Positions 1 to 35,456 of a stretch of DNA of 35,456 nucleotides are shown one piece after another (within the stretch, counting starts at the first letter, position 1; every line of letters begins with the position of its first letter). The notes beneath the pieces are model-generated. The model was given only the letters and a program-made list of their open reading frames with translations, was not told the DNA's origin and searched no databases. Source of the DNA: a virus. The position numbers and the translations under genes are program-made. The DNA lies in IMG/VR virus record IMGVR_UViG_3300050821_002611, positions 1-35,456 of that record. The stretch is one strand, 5' to 3'.

Positions 1-59
1 AAGGCCGGTGTGTCGTTGGGGGTCATGGTTGGTGTGAGTTTATCAAATGGTGTGTTCAT
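1..59 (-). CDS. 5' end of pentapeptide-repeat protein gene (runs off left edge)
   Basis: An ATG at 59-57 overlaps the TGA of the upstream gene (ATGA), the coupling used throughout this operon. The readable N-terminus is MNTPFDKLTPTMTPNDTPA, then two bases (TT) of a codon cut by the window edge. The frame is open to the edge. If the window is circular, base 35456 completes the codon as TTC (Phe) and the frame enters the RDGYD/RAGYD repeat frame at 35455 without a break, giving a 97-residue protein. The N-terminus is Thr/Pro/Asp-rich with no recognised domain and no signal peptide. Function unknown. Confidence 0.7.
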   Translation of the reverse strand, partial: MNTPFDKLTPTMTPNDTPA

Positions 60-199
60 ACGAAAATTCCTTTCGCCCGGCGCCGAGCGCGATAATACAC
101 CCATGCGAATATCAACGGGTGATGCCACAGCAACGTCAGTGCATAAACAGCGGCGTTGATCTGCGCGTCGGACAGTTGGATGAAGTCGAGGGGGTTCAT
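56..199 (-). CDS. hypothetical small protein, 47 aa
   Basis: The product starts MNPLDFIQLSDAQINAA and ends in a basic tail (YYRARRRAKGIFV). The middle is hydrophobic (residues about 15-32, containing ALTLLWHHPLIFAWVYY) and may associate with the membrane. The ATG at 199 lies one base after the TAA of the upstream gene. A longer frame reaches back to 238 but would overlap that gene by 38 bases, so 199 is preferred. Its TGA overlaps the start of the repeat-protein gene at 59. No family recognised. It belongs to the leftward early operon of short unknown genes. Confidence 0.6.
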   Translation of the reverse strand: MNPLDFIQLSDAQINAAVYALTLLWHHPLIFAWVYYRARRRAKGIFV

Positions 200-200
200 G

Positions 201-404
201 TTAACACCAAGTTTTTGTTGCCAAGAATTTCTCCACAAAGCGAATTAGGCGCTCCGTGTAGCAATCAGGATGATTGCAGTTTATCGGAAGTTTGGGGTTG
301 TACCAAAATAAACGACGCTTTGGTTTCTTTGGTTTCTTGGTTTTCATCGCGTTAGCGGGTGCTACTTCCAATTTCGCCGCCGGCACTTTCGCGTGCGTGG
401 TCAC
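201..404 (-). CDS. hypothetical basic protein, 67 aa, GTG start
   Basis: The predicted start is a GTG at 404 that overlaps the upstream TGA (GTGA). An internal ATG at 347 would leave a 48-residue form beginning MKTKKPKKPKRR. The N-terminal third is Ala/Lys-rich and very basic (KTKKPKKPKRR). The rest contains a Cys/His pair (NCNHPDCY) and a C-terminal Cys that could bind a metal, but no known fold was identified. The basic stretch suggests nucleic-acid binding (inference only). Which start is used is uncertain because there is no Shine-Dalgarno sequence to decide. Confidence 0.55.
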   Translation of the reverse strand: MTTHAKVPAAKLEVAPANAMKTKKPKKPKRRLFWYNPKLPINCNHPDCYTERLIRFVEKFLATKTWC

Positions 405-652
405 GGCGATGATGGTTTGCAGTTTTTAAAGTTGGTATTGTGTCCGGCAATTGGACGTTTGTCGCGGAAATGAACCGGGCCTTCCGGCAGCGAATTGTCA
501 GGCGATGTACCGCCCTTCCTGTGGAAAGGTGCGCCGCTTTCGTTCACGAGAAAGCTGCCGCAGATTACGCAACGCTGCTGGCCGTCGCTGTACGGCCCGG
601 CAACGTGGTTAAGGCCGTGTCCGGCCCAGTGTATTACTGTTGGTTCTGGCAT
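401..652 (-). CDS. hypothetical Cys/His protein, possible zinc ribbon, 83 aa
   Basis: The N-terminal half holds HWAGHGLNH followed by RCVICGSFLV, an arrangement of His residues and a CxxC pair that resembles a small zinc knuckle. A second Cys pair for a complete ribbon is not obvious; one further Cys lies near the C-terminus. The ATG at 652 lies 19 bases inside the upstream gene, a larger overlap than the usual 4 bases here, and the stop overlaps the GTG of the next gene. No family assigned. In early phage operons such small proteins often bind host factors, but nothing here shows that directly. Confidence 0.55.
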   Translation of the reverse strand: MPEPTVIHWAGHGLNHVAGPYSDGQQRCVICGSFLVNESGAPFHRKGGTSPDNSLPEGPVHFRDKRPIAGHNTNFKNCKPSSP

Positions 653-867
653 GGTTGTGTACGGTTAATGACGTTGAATAGTTTAATGTCGTCGCCAAAG
701 TTCACCCACACGCGCCGGGTGTTGGTACGATCAGAAAGCATTTCCGCATGGACGCGTCCACAGTGGTCTGGCTTGACGAAGCGGAACGTGCCCAGCCGGC
801 AAATAAACTTGTCGCCGTCTTGCAGGTAAATGCGGTGCGTTGGGGTAGTGTGCAGGTCTGTAATCAT
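634..867 (-). CDS. hypothetical protein, 77 aa
   Basis: The protein begins MITDLHTTPTHRIYLQDGDK and alternates short hydrophobic and charged stretches, consistent with a small beta-rich fold. There is no signal peptide, membrane segment or recognised motif. The ATG at 867 overlaps the previous stop (ATGA), which fixes the start. It is one of a chain of at least nine translationally coupled short genes. Function unknown. Confidence 0.55.
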   Translation of the reverse strand: MITDLHTTPTHRIYLQDGDKFICRLGTFRFVKPDHCGRVHAEMLSDRTNTRRVWVNFGDDIKLFNVINRTQPCQNQQ

Positions 868-1067
868 GGTGTAGAGTTAAGCAAAGTAACGAAGCGCGCG
901 GCGTCACGGTTGGCTGTAGCGGCATCGCCAAAGTTTCGTGGCGTATCGCTTGTCCAGCTTATACCGCCAAAACGTACGATAGCGGGATAAGCGTTTAAGC
1001 GAGGATTACCGTAGACGTCACGGCCAAAAGTATCAAAGCGCGCATCCTGTATTACAACAGCGTTCAT
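864..1067 (-). CDS. hypothetical protein, 67 aa
   Basis: It starts MNAVVIQDARFDTFGRDVYG, with an ATG overlapping the upstream TGA at 1064-1067 and a stop overlapping the next start. The sequence is mixed, soluble and moderately basic, with a GGISWTSDTPRNFGDAATA centre. The repeated small polar residues give no family match that I recognise. Function unknown; early leftward operon. Confidence 0.55.
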   Translation of the reverse strand: MNAVVIQDARFDTFGRDVYGNPRLNAYPAIVRFGGISWTSDTPRNFGDAATANRDAARFVTLLNSTP

Positions 1068-1375
1068 GTAGTAAAAAATTGTGCGCTATCCCACCCGCTT
1101 TGCGTATGGCCGTAAACTACCCGGCCTTGCGGCTTATTACCTTTTAATTTGGGATCGTACGCAATATCTAACGTTAACGACGTGGCCAACGCTTTGCACG
1201 CGCCAACAAATGCGTCCTGTAGTTCACTGATTACACCTTGAAAGGCTGCGCCGTTTGACCAAGTAAAATACACACCGTACAGTGTACCGTGCTCGCGTTT
1301 ACGTGCAATACCGCGCACCTTCGCCTGTTCGCAGACGAAGTAGCAAAAGCTGTAAGCTGATCCGTAGTATATCAT
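1064..1375 (-). CDS. hypothetical protein, 103 aa
   Basis: The N-terminus (MIYYGSAYSFCYFVCEQAK) is aromatic-rich with two Cys residues but is not a convincing signal peptide. The remainder (YGVYFTWSNGAAFQGVISEL, then an Ala/Leu helix and a Lys/Gly-rich end) looks like a soluble alpha/beta protein. Starts and stops overlap both neighbours by ATGA. No family recognised. Confidence 0.55.
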   Translation of the reverse strand: MIYYGSAYSFCYFVCEQAKVRGIARKREHGTLYGVYFTWSNGAAFQGVISELQDAFVGACKALATSLTLDIAYDPKLKGNKPQGRVVYGHTQSGWDSAQFFTT

Positions 1376-1665
1376 GGCTTTAGTGGGTTGTGGAAAGTGT
1401 CGAACACCTTGCGCGTTTCGTCTATACGTTCAAGCTGCCCACCCAGCGTTTGATAGCACTTGTGCCCCAAGCTTTTGAAAGCTGTTTGGTACGTTGCGAC
1501 CTTTTGCATGTAGTACGTGCCGGATTTTAAAGCAGCTTCAAGCACCGGTTCCGGGCCGTAGCAGAATAGCGCCCACAGTACACGGGCTTCGTCTTCTGTC
1601 AGGCGCAGATTGACTTCAAACTCTTGCCGGGCGCAGGCAATGACGGGTACAGCGTTTGGTATCAC
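1372..1665 (-). CDS. hypothetical protein, 97 aa, GTG start
   Basis: The start is a GTG at 1665 overlapping the upstream TGA (GTGA). The protein reads MIPNAVPVIACARQEFEVNL, then LRLTEDEARVLWALFCYG, a predicted helix pair, and a mostly helical C-terminal half (about residues 45-97). The phrase LTEDEARVL followed by a helix is common in small phage regulatory proteins, but I cannot assign a family. No Shine-Dalgarno is present, so translation probably depends on coupling to the upstream gene. Confidence 0.55.
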   Translation of the reverse strand: MIPNAVPVIACARQEFEVNLRLTEDEARVLWALFCYGPEPVLEAALKSGTYYMQKVATYQTAFKSLGHKCYQTLGGQLERIDETRKVFDTFHNPLKP

Positions 1666-2057
1666 GGTTGACCCTTTCCGTACTTCAACTGGTCAATTCT
1701 TGCGCGTTCCTGCTGCATTATGTCAACGGCATCGGCGTGCATTGCGTGTTCACCGCGCGTAGTACCGTCAAGCGCACCCTCTGTCTTAATGATACAAACG
1801 TTAGGTGCGGGGCTAGCTACGGCTTTCTTTTCCAGCATGCAGGCCATCTTGCCGCCCGCAGGCATCATCACGACATTGTGGGTGTACAGGGCTTCAATGC
1901 GCAGCGCCTCTTCCGTGCGATTGGTCTTGTGGGTAATGCTGTCGAATTTCTTGCAGTACGCAAATTCCAGCGCGGGTATATCCGGTTTCCAACCCAGCTT
2001 GCGCAGCAGGCGGTGGGTTTTGTACTTTAGCCAGCGGGCTTTTAGTTTTTTAAGCAT
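1662..2057 (-). CDS. hypothetical protein with basic N-terminus, 131 aa
   Basis: The ATG at 2057 is preferred over an upstream TTG because it lies five bases after the stop of the 38-residue membrane ORF (2063-2179). The first 25 residues are strongly basic and helical (MLKKLKARWLKYKTHRLLRK). The middle is mixed, and the end (HADAVDIMQQERARIDQL) is helical. The basic amphipathic N-terminus could bind nucleic acid or membrane. Function unknown. Confidence 0.55.
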   Translation of the reverse strand: MLKKLKARWLKYKTHRLLRKLGWKPDIPALEFAYCKKFDSITHKTNRTEEALRIEALYTHNVVMMPAGGKMACMLEKKAVASPAPNVCIIKTEGALDGTTRGEHAMHADAVDIMQQERARIDQLKYGKGQP

Positions 2058-2062
2058 GGTGG

Positions 2063-2179
2063 TTATTTTGTATAGTACCAATGGGCAGTAAGAATGATTG
2101 CGTAAACGGTGATTAGTATTAGTACGCGCCAGCCGTCGTGCAGGGGTCGTTTAAAATTAGTACGGTTATGCCAATTCAT
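2063..2179 (-). CDS. small single-span membrane protein, 38 aa
   Basis: Translation of the otherwise empty gap between two early genes gives MNWHNRTNFKRPLHDGWRV, then a hydrophobic helix (VLILITVYAIILTAHWYY), then TK and a TAA at 2065-2063. The ATG at 2179 overlaps the TGA of the upstream gene (ATGA), and the stop lies five bases before the next start. Exact packing between neighbours supports a real gene. The charged N-terminus and single helix predict an inner-membrane miniprotein with the N-terminus inside. Candidate roles are lysis timing or superinfection exclusion, neither shown by the sequence. Confidence 0.6.
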   Translation of the reverse strand: MNWHNRTNFKRPLHDGWRVLILITVYAIILTAHWYYTK

Positions 2180-2595
2180 TTTACCGGCGTTATGTCAAGG
2201 GTTGGCGTTCCGGGCGTGAGGATCAAAGCTTGTTCAAAAACTTTGCGGTGCTGCTTCGTCAAAAGTTTGTATCCTTTGGTAACAAGTACCGGCTTCCAAT
2301 CAATCAACGCGCCCGCGCGCTGGAAATTGGTGGGCATTTCTTTCATCACCGCGTCAAGCGCAGCTTCGTCAATGCGCCGGTTTATTTTTCCCGTTGCCGT
2401 AAGCAAAACACCGCTTGTCAACAGCTCCTTTGTCTCTTCGCCAAGTGTACCAAAGAATGCCTTGACTACGGCTGCGCGGGCTTCGCTTTCCTGTTCTTTG
2501 TACAACGCGGAAACGCGTTTCAATTCGCACCAATTGGCAAGCAAAGTGCGCTGGGCTTTCGTCAGTTTTTTGACGGGCGGTTGTGACGTGGACAT
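2176..2595 (-). CDS. phage protein of the early replication/recombination neighbourhood (DUF7173-like), 139 aa
   Basis: This is the first gene of the leftward operon. It has a helical N-terminus (KLTKAQRTLLANWCELKRVS) and a C-terminal half ending LILTPGTPTLDITPVK. The final Thr-Pro-Gly-Thr-Pro motif with the preceding DWKPVLVTKGYKLL is, from memory, typical of short phage proteins found next to recombination or nuclease genes (DUF7173-like). That assignment is tentative. The start at 2595 follows the divergent control region and gives MSTSQ, like many other genes here. No Shine-Dalgarno is present. Confidence 0.6.
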   Translation of the reverse strand: MSTSQPPVKKLTKAQRTLLANWCELKRVSALYKEQESEARAAVVKAFFGTLGEETKELLTSGVLLTATGKINRRIDEAALDAVMKEMPTNFQRAGALIDWKPVLVTKGYKLLTKQHRKVFEQALILTPGTPTLDITPVK

Positions 2596-2711
2596 GCGCG
2601 CACCGTACAGGTGTACTAATCACGGTCAAGAAAAATCGTGACCCGTTAACGGGTCGTAACTTTTTGATTGGGCTTGACGGCAAGTAGGTCGTAACCCCAT
2701 ACGTGCAGCCC
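2596..2711. promoter_or_regulatory. divergent control region between early and late arms
   Basis: The 116 bases between the leftward operon start (2595) and the regulator gene (2712) should contain both divergent promoters. The region holds a perfect 16-bp palindrome at 2640-2655 and a direct repeat GGTCGTAAC at 2652-2660 and 2687-2695, whose starts are 35 bp apart. A rightward -35-like TTGACG is at 2674-2679, but no convincing -10 follows. A Bacteroidota-type TAnnTTTG box is only approximated by TAACTTTTTG at 2657-2666. Promoter positions are therefore not fixed. Confidence 0.5.
2640..2655. promoter_or_regulatory. candidate operator, 16-bp perfect palindrome
   Basis: GACCCGTTAACGGGTC is a perfect inverted repeat with no spacer. 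It sits in the divergent control region about 57 bp upstream of a small helix-turn-helix protein gene. The symmetry fits binding by a homodimeric regulator. Its right half overlaps the first GGTCGTAAC direct repeat. I noticed no second copy elsewhere. Confidence 0.5.
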
Positions 2712-2984
2712 ATGTCCACACCAAAGTACGACGCCATTTGTTCGCTGCTAGACCGCACGTTGCGGCTGCTGAAAGCGGACAGGCGAACGTTGGAAGATTT
2801 GCACGAACAGACCCGCATACCGCTGGCATGGCTGCGCAAATTTCATTCCGGGGAAATCAAAGTACCCAATATCAACCGCGTGCATTATTTGTACGAATTT
2901 CTAACCCGCAAAAAGCTGTTCCATGCTTCAAAACATTCCGCTAGAGCTGCAAAGCCTGCCCCAATGGGTGGTAGCAGGCGATAA
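2712..2984 (+). CDS. small helix-turn-helix DNA-binding regulator, 90 aa
   Basis: Residues about 5-65 form a compact helical domain resembling phage lambda-repressor-like/Cro-type regulators. The helix-turn-helix is around residues 26-48 (TLEDLHEQTRIPLAWLRKF), followed by HSGEIKVPNINRVHYLYEFL, the usual end of such a domain. The tail is short and basic. An upstream GTG at 2703 would add three residues; the ATG at 2712 (MSTPK) is preferred because MST is the commonest N-terminus here. The gene overlaps the next one by 62 bases. It probably acts on the palindrome just upstream and decides early versus late transcription (inference). Confidence 0.7.
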   Translation: MSTPKYDAICSLLDRTLRLLKADRRTLEDLHEQTRIPLAWLRKFHSGEIKVPNINRVHYLYEFLTRKKLFHASKHSARAAKPAPMGGSRR

Positions 2985-5142
2985 CAAACTGCCGCTTAAT
3001 CCGCGCACAGGCCAGGCCGCAGACGTGACCAATCCCACCACGTGGGGCACGTTCGCGGAAGCTGTGCATACAGGTTACAAGCACGTTGGTTTTGTACTGT
3101 CGCCAAACGATCCGTACACAATCATTGATTTGGATCAGCCGTTGACGGACGATCAGGCCAAGCGCCACACCAAGATACTGGACGCGCTGGCCAGCTATAC
3201 GGAGCTGTCGCAGTCAGGCAACGGCCTGCATATCATCGTGCGCGGTTCAATCCCTGCCGGCGTGCGCCGTGACAAGGTGGAAGTGTACAGTTCAGCGCGC
3301 TACATGATTTGTACGGGCCGTGTGTTCAAAGACCTACCTATAACAGACCAGCAAAACGTCATTACCGCGTTGTACAACGAAATGTCCCGGCCTGCCGATA
3401 TGGGGAATCCCATGACGGAACACGCAGAGACAGTCAGTGACGAAGACATTTACCGCATGGCGGAACGGGCGGCCAACGCGGACAAATTTGTACAGTTGTG
3501 GCAAGGTGATTGGAAAGACGGTTACGAAAGCCAGAGCGAGGCGGATTTCGCATTGCTGTCCATGCTCGCTTTCTATACCAAATCAAATGAACAGGTGCGC
3601 AGGCTGTTCCGTCTGTCTGCGCTGGGCCAAAGGAAGAAAGCAACCGCCAATGATAAGTATATTGACAGAGCTATTGGGAAGATTCGCGCGAATGAACCTC
3701 CGCAAGTGGATTACGCCGCTTTGTCGCAGGACAATGGGGCCGTGGTTCCTGACAATGGTACAAATGAGCTGCAAGGGGAAGACGAAGCCGCAGCAGGTGA
3801 GAGAGACGATACGGCTTACACGTACCCAATTGGCCTCGTTGGTGAAATCGCGGATTTTGTCGAAACGAGTTCGATTAGGCCGGTTAAGGAAATTGCGCTT
3901 GCAACAGCAATCGCGTTCTGCGCGGGCGTTATTGGTCGTTCGTATAACGTTAGCGGTGCTGGCCTTAATCAGTATCTCATTGTGCTGGCGAAAACCGGCA
4001 GCGGAAAAGAAGGCGCAGCTCGCGCCATTGACACCCTCGTTGCCTCCGTCCGGCAAGTAGTGCCAAGCGCAGACCACTTCATTGGGCCAGGCACGTTTGC
4101 GTCCGGCCAGGCGTTGGTGCGTGTGCTGGACGAACGGCCATGCTTTATCTCCGTGCTTGGTGAAATCGGCCTGACGCTGCAACAGCTATGCGACGTGCGC
4201 GCACCGGCCAACCTCGTGCAGCTTAAAAAGGTGCTGTTGGATTTGTATGGCAAGTCCGGGTGGTCAAGCGTGCTGCGTCCGTCCGTGTACAGCGACACGA
4301 ACAAGAATACCAAAGTAATTCAAGCGCCCAATGTCACGCTGCTGGGTGAATCAACGCCGGAAACGTTTTTCAACGGTCTTGGCCTTGAGCATATCCAAGA
4401 GGGTTTGATACCTCGCTTTACGATCCTTGAGTACACCGGCAAGCGTCCGGCGCGCAACCACAACGCGTTCACGCCACCCAGCGCCGCGTTAATGGACAAG
4501 GTTGCATCGCTCTTCACCGTGGCATTGACCACGCAGCAGAATAATACCGTTGCGCCTGTTCAGATAGACGCGCCGGCCTTGAAGCTGCTTAACGCCTTTG
4601 ACGTGTTCTGTACTGATACGATAAACGAGACAGGCAACGAAGTGGAACGCCAGCTTTGGAATCGCGCCCATTTAAAAGTACTAAAACTCTCCGCACTGGT
4701 GGCTGTCGGCTGCAACATGCACCAACCTGTTATTACCACAGAGTGCGTTCAGTGGGCGCAGGCGTTCGTTGAAAAAGAAGCGTACAACATGATCCGGCGT
4801 TTTAAGCAGGGTGAAACCGGCATCGGCGAATCACGGCAGGAAAGCGACGTGCGCAACGCCGTCAGTGACTACCTGAAAATGAACGGTGATACCAAGCGTT
4901 CGTACAAAGTGCCAGAGGCGCTGCTTAACAAACCAATTGTACCGTACCACTACCTGCGGCGCAGAACGCAGGCGCTTGCAGCCTTCAAAAATGACCGCCG
5001 TGGTGCCAACGTTGCGCTGAACACCATGCTTCAAGCAATGGTTGAGGCGGAGATTTTAACCGAAATTCCACCACGCGAGGCGGTCAACCTCTTTGGCCTG
5101 ACTTCAAGAATCTTCGCAAAAGGGCCGACTTTTGGCCGCTAA
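2923..5142 (+). CDS. replication protein: AEP prim-pol domain fused to DUF3987 ATPase, 739 aa
   Basis: The N-terminus (LPQWVVAGDNKLPLNPRTG, then TTWGTFAEA) matches phage prim-pol proteins of the NrS-1 type. AEP-like catalytic elements are visible: IIDLDQP with D69 and D71, SGNGLHI with H103, and KVEVYSS with E120. A helical bundle follows at about residues 174-255. A DUF3987-type P-loop ATPase/helicase-like domain runs from about residue 300, with a Walker A-like AKTGSGKE at 356-363 where the last residue is Glu rather than Ser/Thr. It likely primes and unwinds phage DNA together with the polymerase and clamp encoded on the other arm. The start fits the family and lies inside the regulator gene. 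Confidence 0.85.
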   Translation: MLQNIPLELQSLPQWVVAGDNKLPLNPRTGQAADVTNPTTWGTFAEAVHTGYKHVGFVLSPNDPYTIIDLDQPLTDDQAKRHTKILDALASYTELSQSGNGLHIIVRGSIPAGVRRDKVEVYSSARYMICTGRVFKDLPITDQQNVITALYNEMSRPADMGNPMTEHAETVSDEDIYRMAERAANADKFVQLWQGDWKDGYESQSEADFALLSMLAFYTKSNEQVRRLFRLSALGQRKKATANDKYIDRAIGKIRANEPPQVDYAALSQDNGAVVPDNGTNELQGEDEAAAGERDDTAYTYPIGLVGEIADFVETSSIRPVKEIALATAIAFCAGVIGRSYNVSGAGLNQYLIVLAKTGSGKEGAARAIDTLVASVRQVVPSADHFIGPGTFASGQALVRVLDERPCFISVLGEIGLTLQQLCDVRAPANLVQLKKVLLDLYGKSGWSSVLRPSVYSDTNKNTKVIQAPNVTLLGESTPETFFNGLGLEHIQEGLIPRFTILEYTGKRPARNHNAFTPPSAALMDKVASLFTVALTTQQNNTVAPVQIDAPALKLLNAFDVFCTDTINETGNEVERQLWNRAHLKVLKLSALVAVGCNMHQPVITTECVQWAQAFVEKEAYNMIRRFKQGETGIGESRQESDVRNAVSDYLKMNGDTKRSYKVPEALLNKPIVPYHYLRRRTQALAAFKNDRRGANVALNTMLQAMVEAEILTEIPPREAVNLFGLTSRIFAKGPTFGR

Positions 5143-18054: not shown

Positions 18055-19392
18055 ATGGCCCTTTCGGCAAACATTCGTCGCGTGCTGGTGTTCTCCGCAG
18101 TGTGTCGTCGCGTCTTCTTAGGCGTGTTCGACACACTGGCGGCGGCGCTTGGCCGCGCGTTGCTTGCCGCAGGGCTTGTCAGGGGCCGTACGCAGACGGC
18201 TACCACCGTGGGAAGTGCTTCTGCCGTGGCAACAGCCCGCAGAGGCCGCACAAACGCGCCCACAGTGGTGGCGGCTGCACAGGCCGTCAGTACGCAGTAT
18301 CGTATGCGGCTACCTATTGCGGCATTCACGGGCCTGTCTTCCGCCGCCTTTCCCACGATCCGTGCGCGGCTGAATGCCGCAACATTGCCGCTTGCTGCCG
18401 CTGTTGCCGCCGTTTTCAACAAGATTGGCCAGACCAGCGTAGCCGTTATCGGAAAAGCGACAACGGCGGTTGTGCCGCAGCGCCTGCGCTTATCGTCCGC
18501 CGTAGTGTCCGCAGCCGTTGTGGCCACTACCGCCATTTTACGGCAGCGTTTGGCATCCTTGGCCGCTAGCTGCGGCGCGGCTGTCGTGGCTGATCCTGTG
18601 CGCGCACGGGTTATTTCTGCGCTGTCGGCGGTCTGTCACGCTGCCGCCACCAGTACGGCGGTGCGCATTCGTTTTATTTACGCCACGATCTTGGGCGATG
18701 CCGCGCTAACCTGTCAGGTTATCACAGCCTACGTTGATATTGTCGGCCATGCCGTACTAAACGTTGTCATTGGTCAGGCCATACGCCTGATCGTGGCCGT
18801 GTCCGCAATGTGTACGCCAATCGTGCGGGTGGTGCGGTGGCGGTGGAATAACTCCGTAGTGACTGCTGCTGCTGCTGCTGCCGTGGTATTGCCGCGCAGC
18901 CGTGTTAATCTGGCCAGTATCGCGGCTGCCTGCACGAATGTCTGCCAAGCTATTCGTGGCAAGGTCAACGTACTGAGCGTGGCCGGTCTTTCTGTGCTGA
19001 CGCAGCAATTACTTCGCATAAAGCAAAACATGGCGGCGGTCGCAGCGATTGCCACGCCTGTTGTATTTGTAACGCGCACGCGGCTAATGTCAGCGGCCAC
19101 AACGGGCTTGGCTGCTGCTGTCGCCGTCTTCGCACGGGGCCGCACAATGGTATTATCTGCTACCGGCGTCAGTATGCTGGTTTCGCAGGCTGTTCGTGGC
19201 CGGCAGATACTTACCACAGTGCTTGGCACTGTAGCGTTGGTATCGACGCCCACGCGGGTTCGGCTGCTGCGTGCGACCTGCACCGGCACAGCGGCTATTA
19301 CCCCAATTGGTCAACGGTACACACCGTTCCAAGACGCCTACGGCGTACTATTCGCAGACAACAACGGCAATTTGCTAGCGTACCTAAATTGA
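18055..19392 (+). CDS. repeat-built Ala/Val/Arg-rich protein, 445 aa
   Basis: From about residue 42 to 425 the sequence breaks into about nineteen units of 18-22 residues. Each opens with an R-x-R pair followed by a hydrophobic, Ala-rich stretch; examples are RGRTMVLSATGVSMLVSQAV, RGRQILTTVLGTVALVSTP and RTRLMSAATTGLAAAVAVFA. The periodicity suits beta-hairpins stacked along a fibre or solenoid and resembles repeat minor tail proteins of some actinophages. The end (FQDAYGVLFADNNGNLLAYL) is distinct and may cap the structure. Codons for a run of Ala use a CTG-phased GCTGCT tract near 18862. Opposite-strand frames here are shadows. No domain recognised. Confidence 0.6.
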   Translation: MALSANIRRVLVFSAVCRRVFLGVFDTLAAALGRALLAAGLVRGRTQTATTVGSASAVATARRGRTNAPTVVAAAQAVSTQYRMRLPIAAFTGLSSAAFPTIRARLNAATLPLAAAVAAVFNKIGQTSVAVIGKATTAVVPQRLRLSSAVVSAAVVATTAILRQRLASLAASCGAAVVADPVRARVISALSAVCHAAATSTAVRIRFIYATILGDAALTCQVITAYVDIVGHAVLNVVIGQAIRLIVAVSAMCTPIVRVVRWRWNNSVVTAAAAAAVVLPRSRVNLASIAAACTNVCQAIRGKVNVLSVAGLSVLTQQLLRIKQNMAAVAAIATPVVFVTRTRLMSAATTGLAAAVAVFARGRTMVLSATGVSMLVSQAVRGRQILTTVLGTVALVSTPTRVRLLRATCTGTAAITPIGQRYTPFQDAYGVLFADNNGNLLAYLN

Positions 19393-19950: not shown

Positions 19951-20439
19951 ATGTCCACGTTAATTAGAAAGTTCCGGGTGGCCTTTGCCGCCTTGTTTGT
20001 ATCATTCGCAGGCGTACTATGCGCCCAGCAGTCTCTTTCGCCAATTGTACTAAAGATTGCCAACGTATCCGTACTGACGGGCAGCACGGGCGATATTGGT
20101 ACCGTTGATATACCCGCGTGGGTAACGCGCTTTACTTTGGACGGCGGCGGCGCCGGCCCCATGTCGTCGCCGTCCGTGTTTATCGTAACTGAAACGGCAA
20201 CCGGCGATATTTCCGCGTCCAACTTCGTGCTGCGTGACGGCCCCGGTGGCACCGGGCAGGCCGTATCCGGCACAATCGTTGCCCGCGCGTTTGCCGGTCA
20301 GGTCAACTACGCGGCGTCGTATTGGGCCATGCCGGGCGGCGTAATTTCCACAGGTACGACGTTGTACCTTAACCAAACGGTGTGCAGTGCCAACGCCGGC
20401 ACGGTGTCTGTGTACGTTAAGATTTTACCCCTACCGTGA
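19951..20439 (+). CDS. secreted paralogue of the preceding fibre-like protein, 162 aa
   Basis: The N-terminus MSTLIRKFRVAFAALFVSFA with GVLCAQQS is a signal peptide: a basic start, a hydrophobic core and probable cleavage after LCA. The mature part is the same domain as in the preceding gene: VSVLTGSTGDIGTVDIPAWV, TRFTLDGG, ETATGDISASNFVLRDG and SANAGTVSVYVKILPL. Thus a domain present in a cytoplasm-made structural protein is duplicated in an exported form. Possible roles include a decoy, receptor masking (superinfection exclusion) or an outer-surface lectin; the sequence cannot choose among these. Confidence 0.65.
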   Translation: MSTLIRKFRVAFAALFVSFAGVLCAQQSLSPIVLKIANVSVLTGSTGDIGTVDIPAWVTRFTLDGGGAGPMSSPSVFIVTETATGDISASNFVLRDGPGGTGQAVSGTIVARAFAGQVNYAASYWAMPGGVISTGTTLYLNQTVCSANAGTVSVYVKILPLP

Positions 20440-21296
20440 ACACACGCTATGCCATTATTATTCTGGCCCTTTCTCTGTCCGGCTGTGCCAACCCAATTAC
20501 AAGCTGGCTTAACAAGCGCCATGCAGAGCAGCAGGCGCAGGCCGTGCAGGCAATTAGCGCGCAGGTGCAGCCGTTGCTTGAAGCCAGCCAGAAGCAGCAC
20601 GACGCAGACGTAGCCTTGGCTGCTAATCAGGCAGCTTTGGCTGCGCAGCAGAAAGTACGCTTGGACGTGCTGCACCAGTACGTGCTTGGCGCCGGTCAGG
20701 CGCTTTCACTCGTGCAAAACCCTTCTGACGAAGTGGTGGTTGCGCAGACGTTGACCAGCTACGCGGAGCAGGGATTCGACCCGCTGACGGATCAGCAGAA
20801 GCAGTGGATTACGCAGCTAGTCAAAGGACTGGTGGCAAAGAACGCCGCAGACCGCGCAGCCGCCGCCAAGCAGCTTGCCGACTCACAGGCGGCGCTACAG
20901 CAGACACGCGCCAAGGTCGATACCCTGACCACGGAAAATGCCGCACTGACTGTGGACAAAGCCGCAGCCGTGCAGCAGGAAACAGAACAGCGTCAGGCGC
21001 TGGGGTCGTTGTCTGATCGTGCCACGGCGGTTGCAGCCAAACTAACGGCTGCGCTGGCAAAGCAGTCGTGGTGGAAATCGCTTATCGTTTGTACGCTTTG
21101 GGCTGTTGGCCTGCCGTGGCTGTTCGTGTACGTGTTGCTGCCGCTTGCCGCCGCTGTGTATCCGCCGCTGCTGCCGTTGTCGCTGACTTTTGAAAAAGTC
21201 GGCCATGCCGTACTGCACGCAATTTTTCTCCCCATTCATTCCTTTCTACGGATGTTTGAGGCGAAAGTAACCGCTAAACTGTCAACCATTAAATAG
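20436..21296 (+). CDS. lipoprotein with long helical domain and C-terminal membrane segment, unimolecular-spanin-like, 286 aa
   Basis: A GTG overlapping the previous TGA (GTGA) starts NTRYAIIILALSLSGCANP, a lipoprotein signal with lipobox LSGC and Cys17. Residues about 28-210 are highly helical and Ala/Gln-rich (EQQAQAVQAISAQVQPLLEA, KQLADSQAALQQTRAKVDTL), so probably a periplasm-spanning coiled coil. A hydrophobic region spans about residues 215-250 (SLIVCTLWAVGLPWLFVYVL), followed by an amphipathic tail. A lipid anchor at one end and a membrane helix at the other is the architecture of unimolecular spanins, although those are usually shorter. An alternative is an envelope protein unrelated to lysis. 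Confidence 0.6.
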   Translation: MNTRYAIIILALSLSGCANPITSWLNKRHAEQQAQAVQAISAQVQPLLEASQKQHDADVALAANQAALAAQQKVRLDVLHQYVLGAGQALSLVQNPSDEVVVAQTLTSYAEQGFDPLTDQQKQWITQLVKGLVAKNAADRAAAAKQLADSQAALQQTRAKVDTLTTENAALTVDKAAAVQQETEQRQALGSLSDRATAVAAKLTAALAKQSWWKSLIVCTLWAVGLPWLFVYVLLPLAAAVYPPLLPLSLTFEKVGHAVLHAIFLPIHSFLRMFEAKVTAKLSTIK

Positions 21297-21303
21297 TACT
21301 AAT

Positions 21304-21528
21304 ATGTCCAACCAATTCTTACTTGGCGTGCTCTGCGGCATCGCAGTCACCGTTACGTTTATCGTACTTCACGTTCAGCTTCTGGCTTGGCTCAATAAAG
21401 AGTACCAAGCCCTTGCCTTGGAGTATCACAAGCTTAAAGCCGCGCTGGCGCAGAAGGAAGCTGAACTGCAAACACTGCGTCCAGCTGGCGCTTCGGGTAC
21501 GGCAAACGTTGGCGTCAAACTGAACTGA
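21304..21528 (+). CDS. small membrane-anchored coiled-coil protein, 74 aa
   Basis: A hydrophobic N-terminal helix (FLLGVLCGIAVTVTFIVLHV, about residues 5-27) is followed by a charged helix (EYQALALEYHKLKAALAQKE, AELQTLRP) and a polar tail. This is the layout of an inner-membrane spanin or a membrane anchor. It follows the lipoprotein with a short gap and has the leader AGTACTAAT before the ATG. It may work with that lipoprotein in lysis (inference). Confidence 0.55.
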   Translation: MSNQFLLGVLCGIAVTVTFIVLHVQLLAWLNKEYQALALEYHKLKAALAQKEAELQTLRPAGASGTANVGVKLN

Positions 21529-21530
21529 CA

Positions 21531-21809
21531 ATGCAGCCAAAACCTTCCAGCATGAACAAAGAGCGAAGAGAACACTTCAATTTAAATACGATACTAATTG
21601 GTGTACTTCTTGCGCTTGGCGGCTGGGGGTTAAGCAAGCTGTCTGATCTGCAAACCAACTTCGCAGGGGTCAACGCGCGAATGGACAATATCGAAAAAGT
21701 TGCCGACAAGCTGGATTCGCGCGTTGGCTACGTTGAAAACAAACTGCGTGACGACGAAGTTGCCAATGCCAACGGCCAGCCAATCGGAATGCACGGCGTA
21801 CACAACTAA
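21531..21809 (+). CDS. small membrane protein with helical domain, 92 aa
   Basis: The sequence MNKERREHFNLNTIL (from residue 8) with a membrane helix (ILIGVLLALGGWGLSKL) and a following coiled-coil region (LQTNFAGVNARMDNIEKVAD, KLDSRVGYVENKL) matches many short phage proteins of unknown role placed near lysis genes, similar in shape to haemolysin XhlA-like proteins. An alternative start at 21552 would give that shorter N-terminus. Its TAA overlaps the next start by one base (TAATG). Confidence 0.55.
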   Translation: MQPKPSSMNKERREHFNLNTILIGVLLALGGWGLSKLSDLQTNFAGVNARMDNIEKVADKLDSRVGYVENKLRDDEVANANGQPIGMHGVHN

Positions 21810-30375: not shown

Positions 30376-30432
30376 AACTTTCCCTTCCGTTGTGCTGCTT
30401 GGACAGGCAGGGGTGGCGGGGGTAACGCATAG

Positions 30433-30473
30433 GGACGCCGTAGCCGGCCCCGCACAGCGGCGGTACGGCGTCC
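30433..30473. terminator. candidate bidirectional terminator hairpin
   Basis: GGACGCCGTA and TACGGCGTCC form a perfect 10-bp stem enclosing a 21-base GC-rich loop with an inner GCCG/CGGC pairing. There is no strong T-run on either side, so it would depend on factor-assisted or structure-based termination. The palindromic stem works for both strands. Confidence 0.45.
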
Positions 30474-30516
30474 ATCGTTAGGTACTTTAAGAACGCAACC
30501 TAGGGTATTGTACTGA

Positions 30517-30546
30517 TACCGTACTAACTCGGCCTTTGGTACGGTA
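30517..30546. other. inverted repeat TACCGTAC/GTACGGTA
   Basis: A perfect 8-bp inverted repeat with a 14-base loop in the convergent region, rich in GTAC. It could be a second terminator hairpin for the rightward arm or a binding site. Short flanking copies of GTACTGATACC and GATACCGC lie nearby. Confidence 0.35.
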
Positions 30547-30617
30547 GTGGTATGAAATTGATACCGCTTAAACCCGTGCTGCGCGATGGAACAATTTTTT
30601 ACCGTTTCAAGCACCAG

Positions 30618-32618
30618 TTACAGGCACTCGCCCCAATTCAGGCCGCTCTTGGTGTCAACGCGAATGGGCACGCTAATGGTCAAGGCTGTTTCCATGATCC
30701 GGTGAACCTCCGTAAAGGCGTCTTCGCAGTTGCCGGGGTCAGAGAAGTCTAACGAATCGTGGACGGTGTTGCGTGGTACGCCCGTCACGTCAAATACCCC
30801 AGCCTTCCAGCAGCGCAGCATGGCCGTTTTCATTAGGTCGCCTTCGCTACCCTGCAACTTGTAATTAAGCGCCTTGTGGGTATAGGCCCGGCGCACGTTG
30901 CCATAGCGCGCCACAGCCTCACTAAGCGGCAAGGCAGGCAATTCCACGCCGCGTTTGCGGTAAGCCGGTTCCCACAGGTCAAAACGGTTCATGCGGCCAA
31001 GGATCGTGCGCACGGTGCCAAATAACTGGGCTTCCTTGCTCACGGCGTCCATTGTGGATTTAACGTACGGTGCGCCTTCGTGGTAGGCTGCCAGCAGGGT
31101 TTTGGCTTCGTCCAGTGGCAGCGTCAGGATTTCGGCCAGGTGGTCAATGCCCATTCCGAAAATCAGGCCAAAGTTGACGTTCTTAACCGGCTTGCGTTCA
31201 ATCGCCATGCCGTTGACCCGCTTAATCAGGTCTTGTACTATTTTGTGGTAGTCTGCTTCTGGATCATTGCGAAAAACGCCGCGCACTTCTTCCGCCCCAT
31301 TACCAACCGCATAGTGCGCCAGAAATCTGTATTGTATTTGCGAGTAGTCGAACGACCGCCACGACGGGTGGCCAACGTCCGGCACAGTGATACTACGGAT
31401 AAGCGGGCCAATCCATTCGTCTTTGCTTGGTGCGTTTTCATAATTTGGGTTTGATGAAGAGAAGCGGCCAGTACGGGCACCGTTGCTGTCACCGCGTAGC
31501 GGGTGGAACTGGGGGTACACCTTGCCGTTAATATGCGCGTTTAGCGTGTACCCTTCAACAAAGGTGGTGCGCGTTTTGCTGACGCTGCGCACCTTTCGTA
31601 TCAGTGAGGCAACCGGGTGTTGTACTGTTTTTAAAAAGTCTTTGGTGAAGCTGGGCAAGCCTTCCGGGTTGCACGTGGTTGGATCAGTGTACGGGTACGC
31701 TATACCAAAGTTGTCAAAGACCTTTTTTAGCGAGTCCGCAGCGTCAACGTTGACTTCAAACCCGCAAAGGTTGCGCAGCTCTGCGGTGTGTTCGTTCTCT
31801 TTTTCAAGCAGCAAGTCCCGCACCTGTTCCGCACGTGGTATGTCAACCGTAATACCCTTCATTCGCATTTCAATCAGCAGGTAAATTAAATCGTTCTCCA
31901 TGAAAAACAGCTCTGTCAATCCAAGCTGTTCCAGCAGCGGCCACTGCTTGGCCATGATCCGGGGCGGCAGGTCTATATCGCCAAGAGCGTACGGCGCAGC
32001 CAGACAGGCCGGCGCCTTGTGGATATTGGCACGCTGCTTGGCATCGGCCTTGCCGCCGCAGTATGCGGCCAGCCAGCTAAACAATTCGCTGCCGGTCTTG
32101 CTTTCGCCAAGATATTTTTGCGCGAGTACTTCCAACGCCACCAGTGCGGAGTCGTCCAGCAGGGCTTCGGCAAACTGCACGTCCCACAGCGGGCCGCGCA
32201 CGTACACGCCTTCCTGCCGCAGCCAACCGCAATCGTACATTAGATTGGCGCCGCATTTGCTTTGATCCTCGCGGCCAAGTTCATGGCTAAGCCACGGTAG
32301 GATGCGCCCCGGATCGTAGTTTGTTTCCGGCAGCGTTTCGTGGCGCAGTGGAAAGTACCAACGTCCGTCATCGTCTGCGCCAATGGCAACACCAACCAAG
32401 TGACCTACGCCGCGAGCCCAGCCCGGCCCTTTAGTCAGCAGGTCAGGGTCAAAAGTTTCCGTGTCAATCGTCAGCACCTTGGCGCGGGACAGGTTGGGCA
32501 GGTCGCGCACGGGCTGCCACGTTGATGGCGGTACAGGCGGCTGAATGCGGACGTGCGTACGGTTGACGCGCTCCTTGCCCGTGTCCTGCCAGAACAAGCC
32601 TACGGCGTCGTGTCTCAT
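30618..32618 (-). CDS. family A DNA polymerase with 3'-5' exonuclease domain, 666 aa
   Basis: The proofreading domain has LTIDTETFDP (D52, E54), NLMYDCGWL (D129) and YALGDID (Y210, D214). The polymerase domain has TGRFSSSNPNYENAP, motif A FDYSQIQYR at 423-431, motif B RKPVKNVNFGLIFG at 475-488 and motif C VHDSLDF at 619-625. Catalytic Asp424 and Asp621 are present, but the usual Glu in DYSQIE is Gln429 and the usual HDE is HDS. The ATG at 32618 overlaps the upstream stop (ATGA); a frame back to 32660 would overlap further. It replicates the phage genome with the clamp and prim-pol. Confidence 0.95.
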   Translation of the reverse strand: MRHDAVGLFWQDTGKERVNRTHVRIQPPVPPSTWQPVRDLPNLSRAKVLTIDTETFDPDLLTKGPGWARGVGHLVGVAIGADDDGRWYFPLRHETLPETNYDPGRILPWLSHELGREDQSKCGANLMYDCGWLRQEGVYVRGPLWDVQFAEALLDDSALVALEVLAQKYLGESKTGSELFSWLAAYCGGKADAKQRANIHKAPACLAAPYALGDIDLPPRIMAKQWPLLEQLGLTELFFMENDLIYLLIEMRMKGITVDIPRAEQVRDLLLEKENEHTAELRNLCGFEVNVDAADSLKKVFDNFGIAYPYTDPTTCNPEGLPSFTKDFLKTVQHPVASLIRKVRSVSKTRTTFVEGYTLNAHINGKVYPQFHPLRGDSNGARTGRFSSSNPNYENAPSKDEWIGPLIRSITVPDVGHPSWRSFDYSQIQYRFLAHYAVGNGAEEVRGVFRNDPEADYHKIVQDLIKRVNGMAIERKPVKNVNFGLIFGMGIDHLAEILTLPLDEAKTLLAAYHEGAPYVKSTMDAVSKEAQLFGTVRTILGRMNRFDLWEPAYRKRGVELPALPLSEAVARYGNVRRAYTHKALNYKLQGSEGDLMKTAMLRCWKAGVFDVTGVPRNTVHDSLDFSDPGNCEDAFTEVHRIMETALTISVPIRVDTKSGLNWGECL

Positions 32619-32848
32619 TTGTCTAAGCGCAGATAGTGTTCGCAGTCGATTAAGTCCCACGCTACGTTTTCAGCCACGAACAGTAGCGGGTGGCTTTGGT
32701 GGTCAAGTAGAAAGTCGTTCAACGCCGTCTGTCCGTGAAAGTGTACTGGATTTTCTTTTAAGTAATCAGGGTTAGTACAATACGGGCCTTGCGCCACGTT
32801 GCGAAGTGTCCGGCAACTAGTACAAACAATAAAGTGCGCTTGGCTCAT
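32615..32848 (-). CDS. hypothetical Cys-containing protein, 77 aa
   Basis: It begins MSQAHFIVCTSCRTLRN and contains CxxC at residues 9-12, then YC, with a C-terminal acidic helix (NVAWDLIDCEHYLRLDK). The Cys arrangement suggests a possible small zinc-binding fold, though a complete four-ligand set is not clear. It is coupled by ATGA to both the clamp-like and polymerase genes, so it may be an accessory replication protein. No family recognised. Confidence 0.55.
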   Translation of the reverse strand: MSQAHFIVCTSCRTLRNVAQGPYCTNPDYLKENPVHFHGQTALNDFLLDHQSHPLLFVAENVAWDLIDCEHYLRLDK

Positions 32849-33846
32849 GGCTTTGTACCGCAGATTACGCCACGCGCCACTGATCCGGTGAACAGGGACG
32901 TAGCCGGGTAATTGTTAAACGCAATGAAGTCGGCCACGCCTTGCAAGTTCAGCAGGTGGTCAATGTTGAAGCAGCAGCCATTTGGCACGTTATCAATACT
33001 AATTGCCGTACCGCTAGATTGCGGCTGCGCGGTCGTGGCGATACAGCTACCGTGAAAGAACACCTGCCGGCGCTCATTGCAGAAAGGAGCCAAAACCGCC
33101 AAAGCGTCGAACAGTCCGGCAGGCACTGGAAACAGCGCAGGATGCGTTGTAGTGGCTTCCAGCATTTGTTCGACATTGGGCCATTTGCTTTCAAGCAACT
33201 GCGTCAGCAGCCGGCGCTGGCCGCTAAAATTAAACGTCAGGTTGTGCGTACCCATTTGTATTGATTCCGGCTCTTCGTCAATGCGCAGGATTTCGTCCAC
33301 GGCAGCGGCTGGAATGTTGACGCAGCCGTTGAAGGCTTGGCCCAGCCAATACTGTACAAGTACGATATTGTTGGTGGCACAGGCGCAGCCTTCGTTTAAC
33401 AGCACGCCGCAGCCCCACGGGCGGCTTTGGTCTGTGGAAATAAACGGGCGAAGCATGCGCAATGCCGGCAGTATCGGCATAGGCAGCGGCTGGACGTGGC
33501 CGCTGGGTTCCATTACCGGAAAGTCTGCAATACTAATGCAGTCAATCAACGTATGCAATTTGCCAGACAATACGGCCAGCTTGCCGGCGTCGTTGACGTA
33601 CATTTGTATTGTATCTTTGCAGGCGGCTATCGCCTTTAGGAACGGTTCGCCCTTTGGTACAACGGTCAAGTCAATGGGAATGCGGCAGCGCAAATGCACG
33701 ATCCCACTGTACCCGCCAATGAAGCCGTCTTTGACGTAGAAGTGAGACAATGCCGGTATATGGTCGTGCCGGGCTAACGATCCCTGTACAAAATTCAGGG
33801 CGTCAGCAATGCCGTGCAGCTCTTGCTTGGTTTTGGTCTTTTTCAC
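32845..33846 (-). CDS. sliding-clamp-like protein (DnaN-like), GTG start, 333 aa
   Basis: The order is that of phage beta-clamp proteins: ALNFVQGSLARHDHIPALSH near the start, GGYSGIVHL, then IQMYVNDAGKLAVLSGKLHT, ISIADFPVMEP, RPFISTDQSRPWGCGVLLNE, AATNN-like segment CACATNNIVLVQYWL and VNIPAAAVDEILRIDEEPES. A clamp would hold the adjacent polymerase on DNA. There is no ATG near the start; GTG at 33846 gives MKKTKTKQEL, while a TTG at 33852 would add two residues. A rho-independent terminator ends about 8 bases upstream of the start. The C-terminal quarter is less typical. Confidence 0.75.
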   Translation of the reverse strand: MKKTKTKQELHGIADALNFVQGSLARHDHIPALSHFYVKDGFIGGYSGIVHLRCRIPIDLTVVPKGEPFLKAIAACKDTIQMYVNDAGKLAVLSGKLHTLIDCISIADFPVMEPSGHVQPLPMPILPALRMLRPFISTDQSRPWGCGVLLNEGCACATNNIVLVQYWLGQAFNGCVNIPAAAVDEILRIDEEPESIQMGTHNLTFNFSGQRRLLTQLLESKWPNVEQMLEATTTHPALFPVPAGLFDALAVLAPFCNERRQVFFHGSCIATTAQPQSSGTAISIDNVPNGCCFNIDHLLNLQGVADFIAFNNYPATSLFTGSVARGVICGTKP

Positions 33847-33854
33847 GGGCAAGC

Positions 33855-33907: not shown

Positions 33908-34756
33908 TTATTTGCTAGCAACGCCGCTGTTGCCACGGCCTTTGAGGCCGTTAAAGCGCCGCCAGCGGGCGTAATGGACGGAAGCCGTCCACTGGTTGAC
34001 GTTGGCTGCTTTACAGGCATCCAAGACCGCCTGACGCAGCGCCGGGGCGCCGCTGTCTGCGCTGATCTTGTCTGCAATTTCCCACACCTTCACCGTTTTA
34101 AGGCTGGTGGGGCGCGGACGGGAAATGCCGTTTTGGGCGATGCAGCCGCGCGTGTTGGGCACTTTGACGCGAAGCTTGGCCAGTTCCTTGCGGTTGGTAA
34201 TCGGCTTGGCCGGCACGACCGGCTTGGCTTTGACGGGCGCTTTGGCCTTGACCTTTGCTTTGGGTGACGGCTTGGCCTTCGCCTTGGCCGTCTTTTTGAT
34301 CTTCTTTTTGGACATGGTTTTGTATGGTTTATCTTTTATGTACGGATTAGCCGTAAACGGTTTGACGGACGGTACAAATAGTACTCTTCCCAATTTCCGT
34401 ACACTTGTCGAGTACTGTTTTTGGTAGTCTTTCAAGTCGGGCGCAAGCGGCTTGGCAACGGCCTGTTGTTCACGTTTAGCCGCTGGGGTCTTGCTGGCTT
34501 TGAACGCGAGGCGACGGCCACGAGGCCAGCGCCGCAACGGGTGTACAACGGCGCCAAGAATGGGGTAATGCAGCCACGGTATGCGCCCGTAATCAGCATC
34601 GTACGACGCGTCCGGCTTTTCCGCCTGTTTGGTTATTTGTACACGATGCGTGGCATCGCTGCGGCGCTTGACGCCACGGAACACGATACCGTCAGCGGTC
34701 TTGACCTTGCGGGCGTACTCAAAGCCTTGTTCAGCTAGAGCAATAATAGTGTTCAT
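33908..34756 (-). CDS. basic histone-like DNA-binding protein with internal start, 282 aa
   Basis: Residues 1-147 are an unrecognised domain (begins MNTIIALAEQGFEYARKVKT), followed by a Lys/Ala/Pro-rich tract (KKKIKKTAKAKAKPSPKAKV) like histone H1 tails. Next comes a C-terminal domain (SLKTVKVWEIADKISADSGA, PALRQAVLDACKAANVNQWT, ASVHYARWRRFNGLK) found in phage DNA-binding proteins. An in-frame ATG at 34315 (MSKKKIKKTAK) would make the 135-residue C-terminal part alone, so two products are possible. The ATG overlaps the upstream stop (ATGA), and a terminator follows the stop. Confidence 0.65.
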   Translation of the reverse strand: MNTIIALAEQGFEYARKVKTADGIVFRGVKRRSDATHRVQITKQAEKPDASYDADYGRIPWLHYPILGAVVHPLRRWPRGRRLAFKASKTPAAKREQQAVAKPLAPDLKDYQKQYSTSVRKLGRVLFVPSVKPFTANPYIKDKPYKTMSKKKIKKTAKAKAKPSPKAKVKAKAPVKAKPVVPAKPITNRKELAKLRVKVPNTRGCIAQNGISRPRPTSLKTVKVWEIADKISADSGAPALRQAVLDACKAANVNQWTASVHYARWRRFNGLKGRGNSGVASK

Positions 34757-34974
34757 TGCGTGAGCTTGTTGCCCGTTAGTACGGTGGTTATGCGCCGGAT
34801 GTTTAGCGATGCACGTATGCTTTTATCAGCCGTGCTTTTTACGCTAACGAATGCGCCAAGCGCATCGGTTAATGAGTAGTAAATGCAGAGCTGTCCCGTT
34901 CCGGTTTGTTCAACAAAAGCCGTATCTGTACAAATGGCGTACACTACTGCGCGCCGTGGCTTACTTTTTGGCAT
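34753..34974 (-). CDS. hypothetical protein, 73 aa
   Basis: The product begins MPKSKPRRAVVYAICTDTAF and continues TGTGQLCIYYSLTDALGAFV, a short beta/alpha protein with a basic N-terminus. The ATG at 34974 lies 14 bases inside the end of the upstream gene. A longer reading back to 35178 would run through that gene and produces an Arg-rich non-biological N-terminus, so it is rejected. The stop overlaps the next start (ATGA). No family recognised. Confidence 0.55.
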   Translation of the reverse strand: MPKSKPRRAVVYAICTDTAFVEQTGTGQLCIYYSLTDALGAFVSVKSTADKSIRASLNIRRITTVLTGNKLTQ

Positions 34975-35209
34975 TGGCGTGCGCTTTCTTCTTTGGCGGC
35001 AGTGCCGCTTTCTGTGCAGCGATGATGCACGCTTCCGCAGCCTCTTGCGTGGGGAAGCGTGCAAGGTAGCCTTCACCTTTAACGTGGACGTGGCCTTGTA
35101 CGATAGTGACCTTTGTATTTGGGTACGACTTAAAGTAGTTGTCCCAAAGTGACTGGCTAGTGTTGTAGCAGCCGACATTGTTGCCGGCGAGTATGGTTAG
35201 TTGTGGCAT
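34961..35209 (-). CDS. hypothetical protein, 82 aa
   Basis: The ATG at 35209 gives MPQLTILAGNNVGCYNTSQS; a GTG at 35218 would add three residues. The middle (DNYFKSYPNTKVTIVQGHVH, VKGEGYLARFPTQEAAEACI) looks like a small alpha/beta domain and the end is Lys/Ala-rich (ALPPKKKAHANAKK). No known family. It follows the pentapeptide-repeat gene by a few bases in the leftward operon. Confidence 0.55.
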   Translation of the reverse strand: MPQLTILAGNNVGCYNTSQSLWDNYFKSYPNTKVTIVQGHVHVKGEGYLARFPTQEAAEACIIAAQKAALPPKKKAHANAKK

Positions 35210-35221
35210 GGTGGACACAGG

Positions 35222-35456
35222 TTACAAAACGAACGGTGCTAATTTTTCGCCGGCGCGGTCGTACCCGGCGCGGTCGTACCCGGCGCGGTTGTACCCGTCG
35301 CGGTCGTACCCGGCGCGGTCGTACCCGGCGCGGTCGTACCCGGCGCGGTTGTACCCGGCGCGGTTGTACCCGGCGCGGTCGTACCCGTCGCGGTCGTACC
35401 CGGCGCGGTCGTACCCGTCGCGGTCGTACCCGGCGCGGTCGTACCCGTCGCGGTCG
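35222..35456 (-). CDS. 3' part of pentapeptide-repeat (RAGYD/RDGYD) protein gene, open to right edge
   Basis: On the minus strand the frame is open from the window edge and reads D, then thirteen five-residue units of R-(A/D)-G-Y-(D/N), then RAGEKLAPFVL and TAA at 35224-35222. It has no start codon in this part. In a circular genome it continues the gene starting at base 59 in perfect phase, giving a 97-residue protein that is more than two-thirds repeat. Tyr-Asp-Arg repeats occur as low-complexity domains in some phage and eukaryotic proteins, and no enzyme is implied. The product is rich in Tyr and both charges, so multivalent binding is plausible (inference). Confidence 0.65.
   Translation of the reverse strand, partial: DRDGYDRAGYDRDGYDRAGYDRDGYDRAGYNRAGYNRAGYDRAGYDRAGYDRDGYNRAGYDRAGYDRAGEKLAPFVL
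35251..35456 (-). repeat. 15-bp tandem repeat, 13 full units plus a partial unit
   Basis: Units of 15 bases (plus strand CGGCGCGGTCGTACC) run to the window end without spacer. They differ at only two base positions, both of which change the encoded residue: Ala/Asp and Asp/Asn. Each unit contains GTAC. The end of the window inside the repeat is what an assembler does at a tandem array, so unit number is not certain. Confidence 0.9.

Follow-up and report, generated by a model that had tools for sequence, protein, structure and literature searches.

The window analysed here is the virus record IMGVR_UViG_3300050821_002611 in its entirety, exactly 35,456 bases, and it raises the question of whether its two ends are neighbours in a closed phage genome or whether other genes lie between positions 35456 and 1. 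The first-pass annotation had favoured closure because leftward reading frames at the two edges join into one. At the left edge, a leftward ORF with ATG at 59-57 (1..59, minus strand) reads MNTPFDKLTPTMTPNDTPA and reaches base 1 leaving TT. Because this ATG shares an ATGA with the stop codon of the gene upstream and is preceded by a good ribosome-binding site (GAAAGGAATTTTCGT-ATG), the start is, on sequence grounds, probably real. The right edge cuts a leftward gene whose C-terminal part is present (35222..35456, minus strand), with GAC at 35455 as the first whole codon inside the window, the tail GEKLAPFVL and TAA at 35224-35222. Within it, a 15-bp tandem array of 13.8 copies (35250..35456, minus strand), which encodes [D/N]-R-[A/D]-G-Y, leaves the right edge. 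Base 35456 contributes the missing C, which completes a TTC codon at the joint and yields a frame of 97 codons plus a stop, as had been described. The joint does place F-D in the repeat register, although it reads TPAFD rather than the quoted APAFD.

As a chance test, every gene of the window was cut at every position and joined to the array. In-frame joins accounted for 33% of all cut points within the window's genes, and contig ends that join in frame are thus weak evidence of closure. With F or Y also required at the repeat's aromatic position, 3.2% of cuts remained, and with D or N five residues further upstream 0.34%; the first two criteria were those of the earlier reader, whereas the third was chosen post hoc, with the data already seen. 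An F at the joint is natural because 104 of about 580 array units at related loci (~18%) have F in place of Y. The in-frame, in-register join is moderate evidence for a real junction. It is an argument for reading the record as a complete circular 35,456-bp map that was cut exactly at the array edge and that carries a real 97-aa gene. It is also compatible with a genome whose ends lie in one gene and which is otherwise closed, with n × 15 bp of array units missing at the junction, since each unit spans five whole codons and any n keeps both frame and register; the near-uniform units would also leave the exact array length uncertain. The idea that the left flank holds a decayed array unit was rejected, since the flank showed no similarity to the array at the DNA level (p 0.38 to 0.85).

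Between the window ends we detected no terminal redundancy of at least 8 bp, and a search of IMG/VR with the exact DNA of either edge gave no match, so no relative bridging the junction was found. We compared this with the ends of 18 other IMG/VR records, three of which repeat their terminal sequence exactly over 127, 127 and 99 bp, lengths typical of assembler k-mers. Because these three keep their overlaps, IMG/VR does not trim closed contigs as a rule, and we discarded the reading of the window as a trimmed circular contig. Long-read assemblers can give circles without an overlap. Two control contigs broken in arrays of this kind have array at both ends. In contig G001 (42,993 bp), both ends lie inside one DRDGY gene and share 118 bp of array, and their direct end-to-end join is out of frame. 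The SPAdes contig OR850760 (P22-like, Salmonella phage S.Inf 5-2) both begins and ends within a different 15-bp array, and its two ends overlap by 167 bp. In the window, by contrast, the array is found at one end only. The absent overlap and the array-free left end both count against exact closure; missing array units would explain the absent overlap more easily, but not a left end without any array bases. The ends of OR850760.1 (L064, L065) also show that a public record can be cut inside a pentapeptide-type repeat array.

A break at the array would be expected even in a closed genome, since the array is the sole long repeat of the artificial circle. Its longest internal exact repeat is 61 bp (35366-35426 = 35396-35456). 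We rejected the coincidence of this repeat with position 35456 as the fingerprint of a graph break, because any cut here ends in some repeated suffix. The array is about as long as a short sequencing read or longer and nearly uniform, and we infer that it hindered short-read assembly and caused the break. Coding arrays of 15-bp units are spots where phage contigs end. The array DNA had no match in cellular genomes. At the protein level, it probably forms a repetitive tail on a small early gene product.

The architecture of this protein was examined in its homologues. Only one IMG/VR contig (L107) was found to share the same 26-bp array DNA, and its 150-aa array protein, the closest homologue of that in the window, ends in GEKLKPFDI compared with GEKLAPFVL in the window. 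Both have a DRxGY array followed by a GEKLxPF tail, but in L107 a phrog_889 domain precedes the array; this domain is absent from the joined frame and was not found elsewhere in the window. Array proteins of the same type in L107, L042/G001, L025, L043 and L044 begin with a phrog_889-kind domain of ~95 aa, whereas the joined frame has 20 residues before the array. The family match was run on L107 and L042 only, and the N-terminal domain aligned in four further array proteins besides L107. Some array genes do have short N-termini (L028, L030, L040). A real 97-residue gene, as proposed by the first-pass annotation, is thus not supported, since the closest array homologue carries a different N-terminal domain of 95 aa, and this different N-terminus speaks against exact closure and against missing array units alike. 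The first-pass annotation had named homologues with the halves in separate genes as grounds for rejecting its reading, and the L107 protein provides such a case, although as one close homologue only.

Because an ERF recombinase and a YqaJ nuclease are encoded in the early region that contains the array gene of L107, this neighbourhood suggests, by analogy, that the array protein may act near recombination or host takeover. The fusion of a phrog_889-like domain (HCGTxHCxGGW) to a C-terminal DRxGY array was seen in five phage contigs, and the DRxGY array type also terminates or fills many other phage proteins. Two proteins of ~1700-2000 aa (L031:5682-10823 and L033:8786-14776) contain long runs of GY[DN]xDGY/GFN units. 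The 97-aa frame also matched Salmonella, Edwardsiella and EBPR phages, but these matches were not homologues; in three such records that we read, the annotated gene lies on the opposite strand and encodes an ordinary pentapeptide protein of the A(D/N)LxG type. The gene underlying a Bacteroides match has TEPEQ repeats instead of DRxGY, and a DotG match was weak and far under its cut-off.

The gene order agrees with a circular map. The first-pass annotation had united the two leftward blocks into one operon, and this holds; finished relatives share the order. The operon is bounded, as had been proposed, by a divergent control region (2596..2702), from which a phrog_2480 gene (2176..2595, minus strand) runs leftward as its first gene. 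It is followed by eight small, packed genes without clear database relatives (56..2081, minus strand). Beyond the junction, a small gene without assigned function (34961..35218, minus strand) adjoins the array gene downstream, followed by a homologue of NC_072504 gp51 (phrog_18634; 33908..34756, minus strand), a sliding clamp (phrog_947; 32845..33852, minus strand) and, as the final gene, a family A DNA polymerase (30618..32660, minus strand). Rightward from the control region lie a homologue of a small DNA-binding protein (2703..2984, plus strand; 51% over 59 aa to the gp08 region of NC_072504) and a primase/helicase (phrog_3022; 2923..5142, plus strand). At its other end, the operon is bounded by a convergent region whose layout is that of the relatives, but its description as a terminator region is weak, as 30376-30617 contains no terminator-like site.

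The early genes are nearest to those of Stenotrophomonas phage vB_SM_ytsc_ply2008005c (NC_072504) and its relatives, with identities of 58% for the primase, 55% for the polymerase, 41% for the clamp and 38% for the phrog_2480 protein. NC_072504 and its relatives PSASB_03, Bhz54 and VPv64 have the divergent and convergent layout of the window. In finished relatives, the primase runs rightward from the divergent region, a phrog_2480 or MazG-type gene runs leftward, and the operon ends with clamp and polymerase; the divergent pair of phrog_2480 and DNA-binding protein plus primase, and the leftward clamp and polymerase, are present in the window. Of these genomes, NC_072504 and PP408248 have circular records; Microcystis phage Me-ZS1 shows this gene order on the opposite strand, and PaMx25 departs in the orientation of its primase. 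This agreement in operon layout with finished circular relatives favours exact closure. Septimatrevirus (PAC1, PSV3) is more distant; there and in Burkholderia phage KL1 the order is polymerase, clamp, helicase, exonuclease, SSB, RecA/Sak4, divergent regulator and primase, in records of mostly 39-43 kb whose primases are only ~42-44% identical to that of the window and which have the replication/recombination cassette. The structural genes of the window had no match in NC_072504 or PSASB_03, and the primase and the gp51 homologue found no relatives when used as IMG/VR queries. The record can be catalogued as a nearly complete genome in which early genes of the ytsc_ply2008005c/Septimatrevirus lineage accompany a structural module of another kind.

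The cassette itself separates the window from these phages. Unlike the window, the NC_072504 group has a leftward operon with helicase, Cas4 exonuclease, SSB and Sak4, plus que genes. Helicase and exonuclease lie between the genes that flank the window ends in all ten relatives read, and SSB and a Sak4/RecA-type gene are also there in most of them; the ten represent about six independent lineages, four being near-identical. The same helicase/exonuclease/SSB/Sak4-type set has been described for Burkholderia phage KL1 (PMC3483164). Neither a PHROGs scan nor tblastn revealed a helicase, exonuclease, SSB or Sak4 gene in the window. In NC_072504, the helicase is situated three genes upstream of gp51. 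The cassette measures 6,965 bp (NC_072504) or 5,049 bp (PAC1), and adding 5-7 kb to the 35.5 kb of the window brings it to about the size of the nearest relatives, 41.9-43.4 kb.

The argument from these missing genes is tempered by the eight small genes that follow phrog_2480. In ytsc-type relatives and in Microcystis phage Me-ZS1, the Sak4-type ATPase comes 0-1 genes after phrog_2480; in the window, the eight small genes stand where it is usual. They show that the closeness of phrog_2480 and Sak4 is already broken, so that the cassette has been rearranged in the window's lineage and its loss there is conceivable. Because the window's primase is of the primase/helicase type, the phage may also manage without a second helicase. 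We nevertheless regard a closed 35,456-bp member that has lost helicase, exonuclease, SSB and Sak4 as unlikely. Replication of such a phage would depend on primase/helicase, family A polymerase, clamp and RusA alone, and small genes and an array-only protein would stand in the cassette's place. Conversely, if closure is taken at face value, a cassette that is merely missing from the record would pass as a biological loss.

With no overlap, an array at one end only, the relatives' genes missing and a phrog_889 domain in the homologue, the proposal of a closed genome whose ends abut with nothing missing is not supported. A gap with other genes between 35456 and 1, in a record that is nearly complete, is in our judgement the probable situation. 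Exact closure, which has the in-register join, the shared operon layout, the complete set of head and tail genes and the expected break at the array in its favour, is improbable given the missing overlap, the array-free left end, the absent cassette and the different N-terminus in L107. An otherwise closed genome lacking only array units meets the same objections and is very improbable. These gradings are judgements and not computed probabilities.

Most likely, the record represents ~85% of a siphovirus genome that was broken in the tandem array. According to the preferred reading of a gap, the contig would be that of a nearly complete siphovirus with early genes of the lineage of vB_SM_ytsc_ply2008005c, Variovorax phage VPv64 and Septimatrevirus, and its right end would have halted in the 15-bp array, where short-read assembly is hindered. 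The array would be a C-terminal tail, and the N-terminal part of its protein, probably a phrog_889 domain, would lie outside the window. Between 35456 and 1, ~5-7 kb of the leftward operon would be missing, including helicase, exonuclease and Sak4-type genes; we infer this size and content from the relatives. The left-edge ORF would then be the beginning of another gene, and the in-register join a coincidence of ~3%.

Because the window contains the terminase genes, its edges probably do not correspond to the natural ends of the virion DNA, given the usual position of packaging sites. In its structural genes, the phage looks ordinary, with an HNH gene, small and large terminase, an HK97-type head, a long tail, a tape measure and a J-like fibre. 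In the divergent control region, the palindrome GACCCGTTAACGGGTC at 2640-2655 forms the core of a longer palindrome, AAAAATCGTGACCCGTTAACGGGTCGTAACTTTT (2631-2664), between the divergent operons, which is a candidate operator or bidirectional terminator. A 445-aa alanine/valine-rich protein with imperfect repeats and without a family match is encoded at 18055-19392. No endolysin was recognisable by PHROGs or Pfam among the window ORFs scanned; small spanin- and holin-like proteins seem to be present at 20436-21809.
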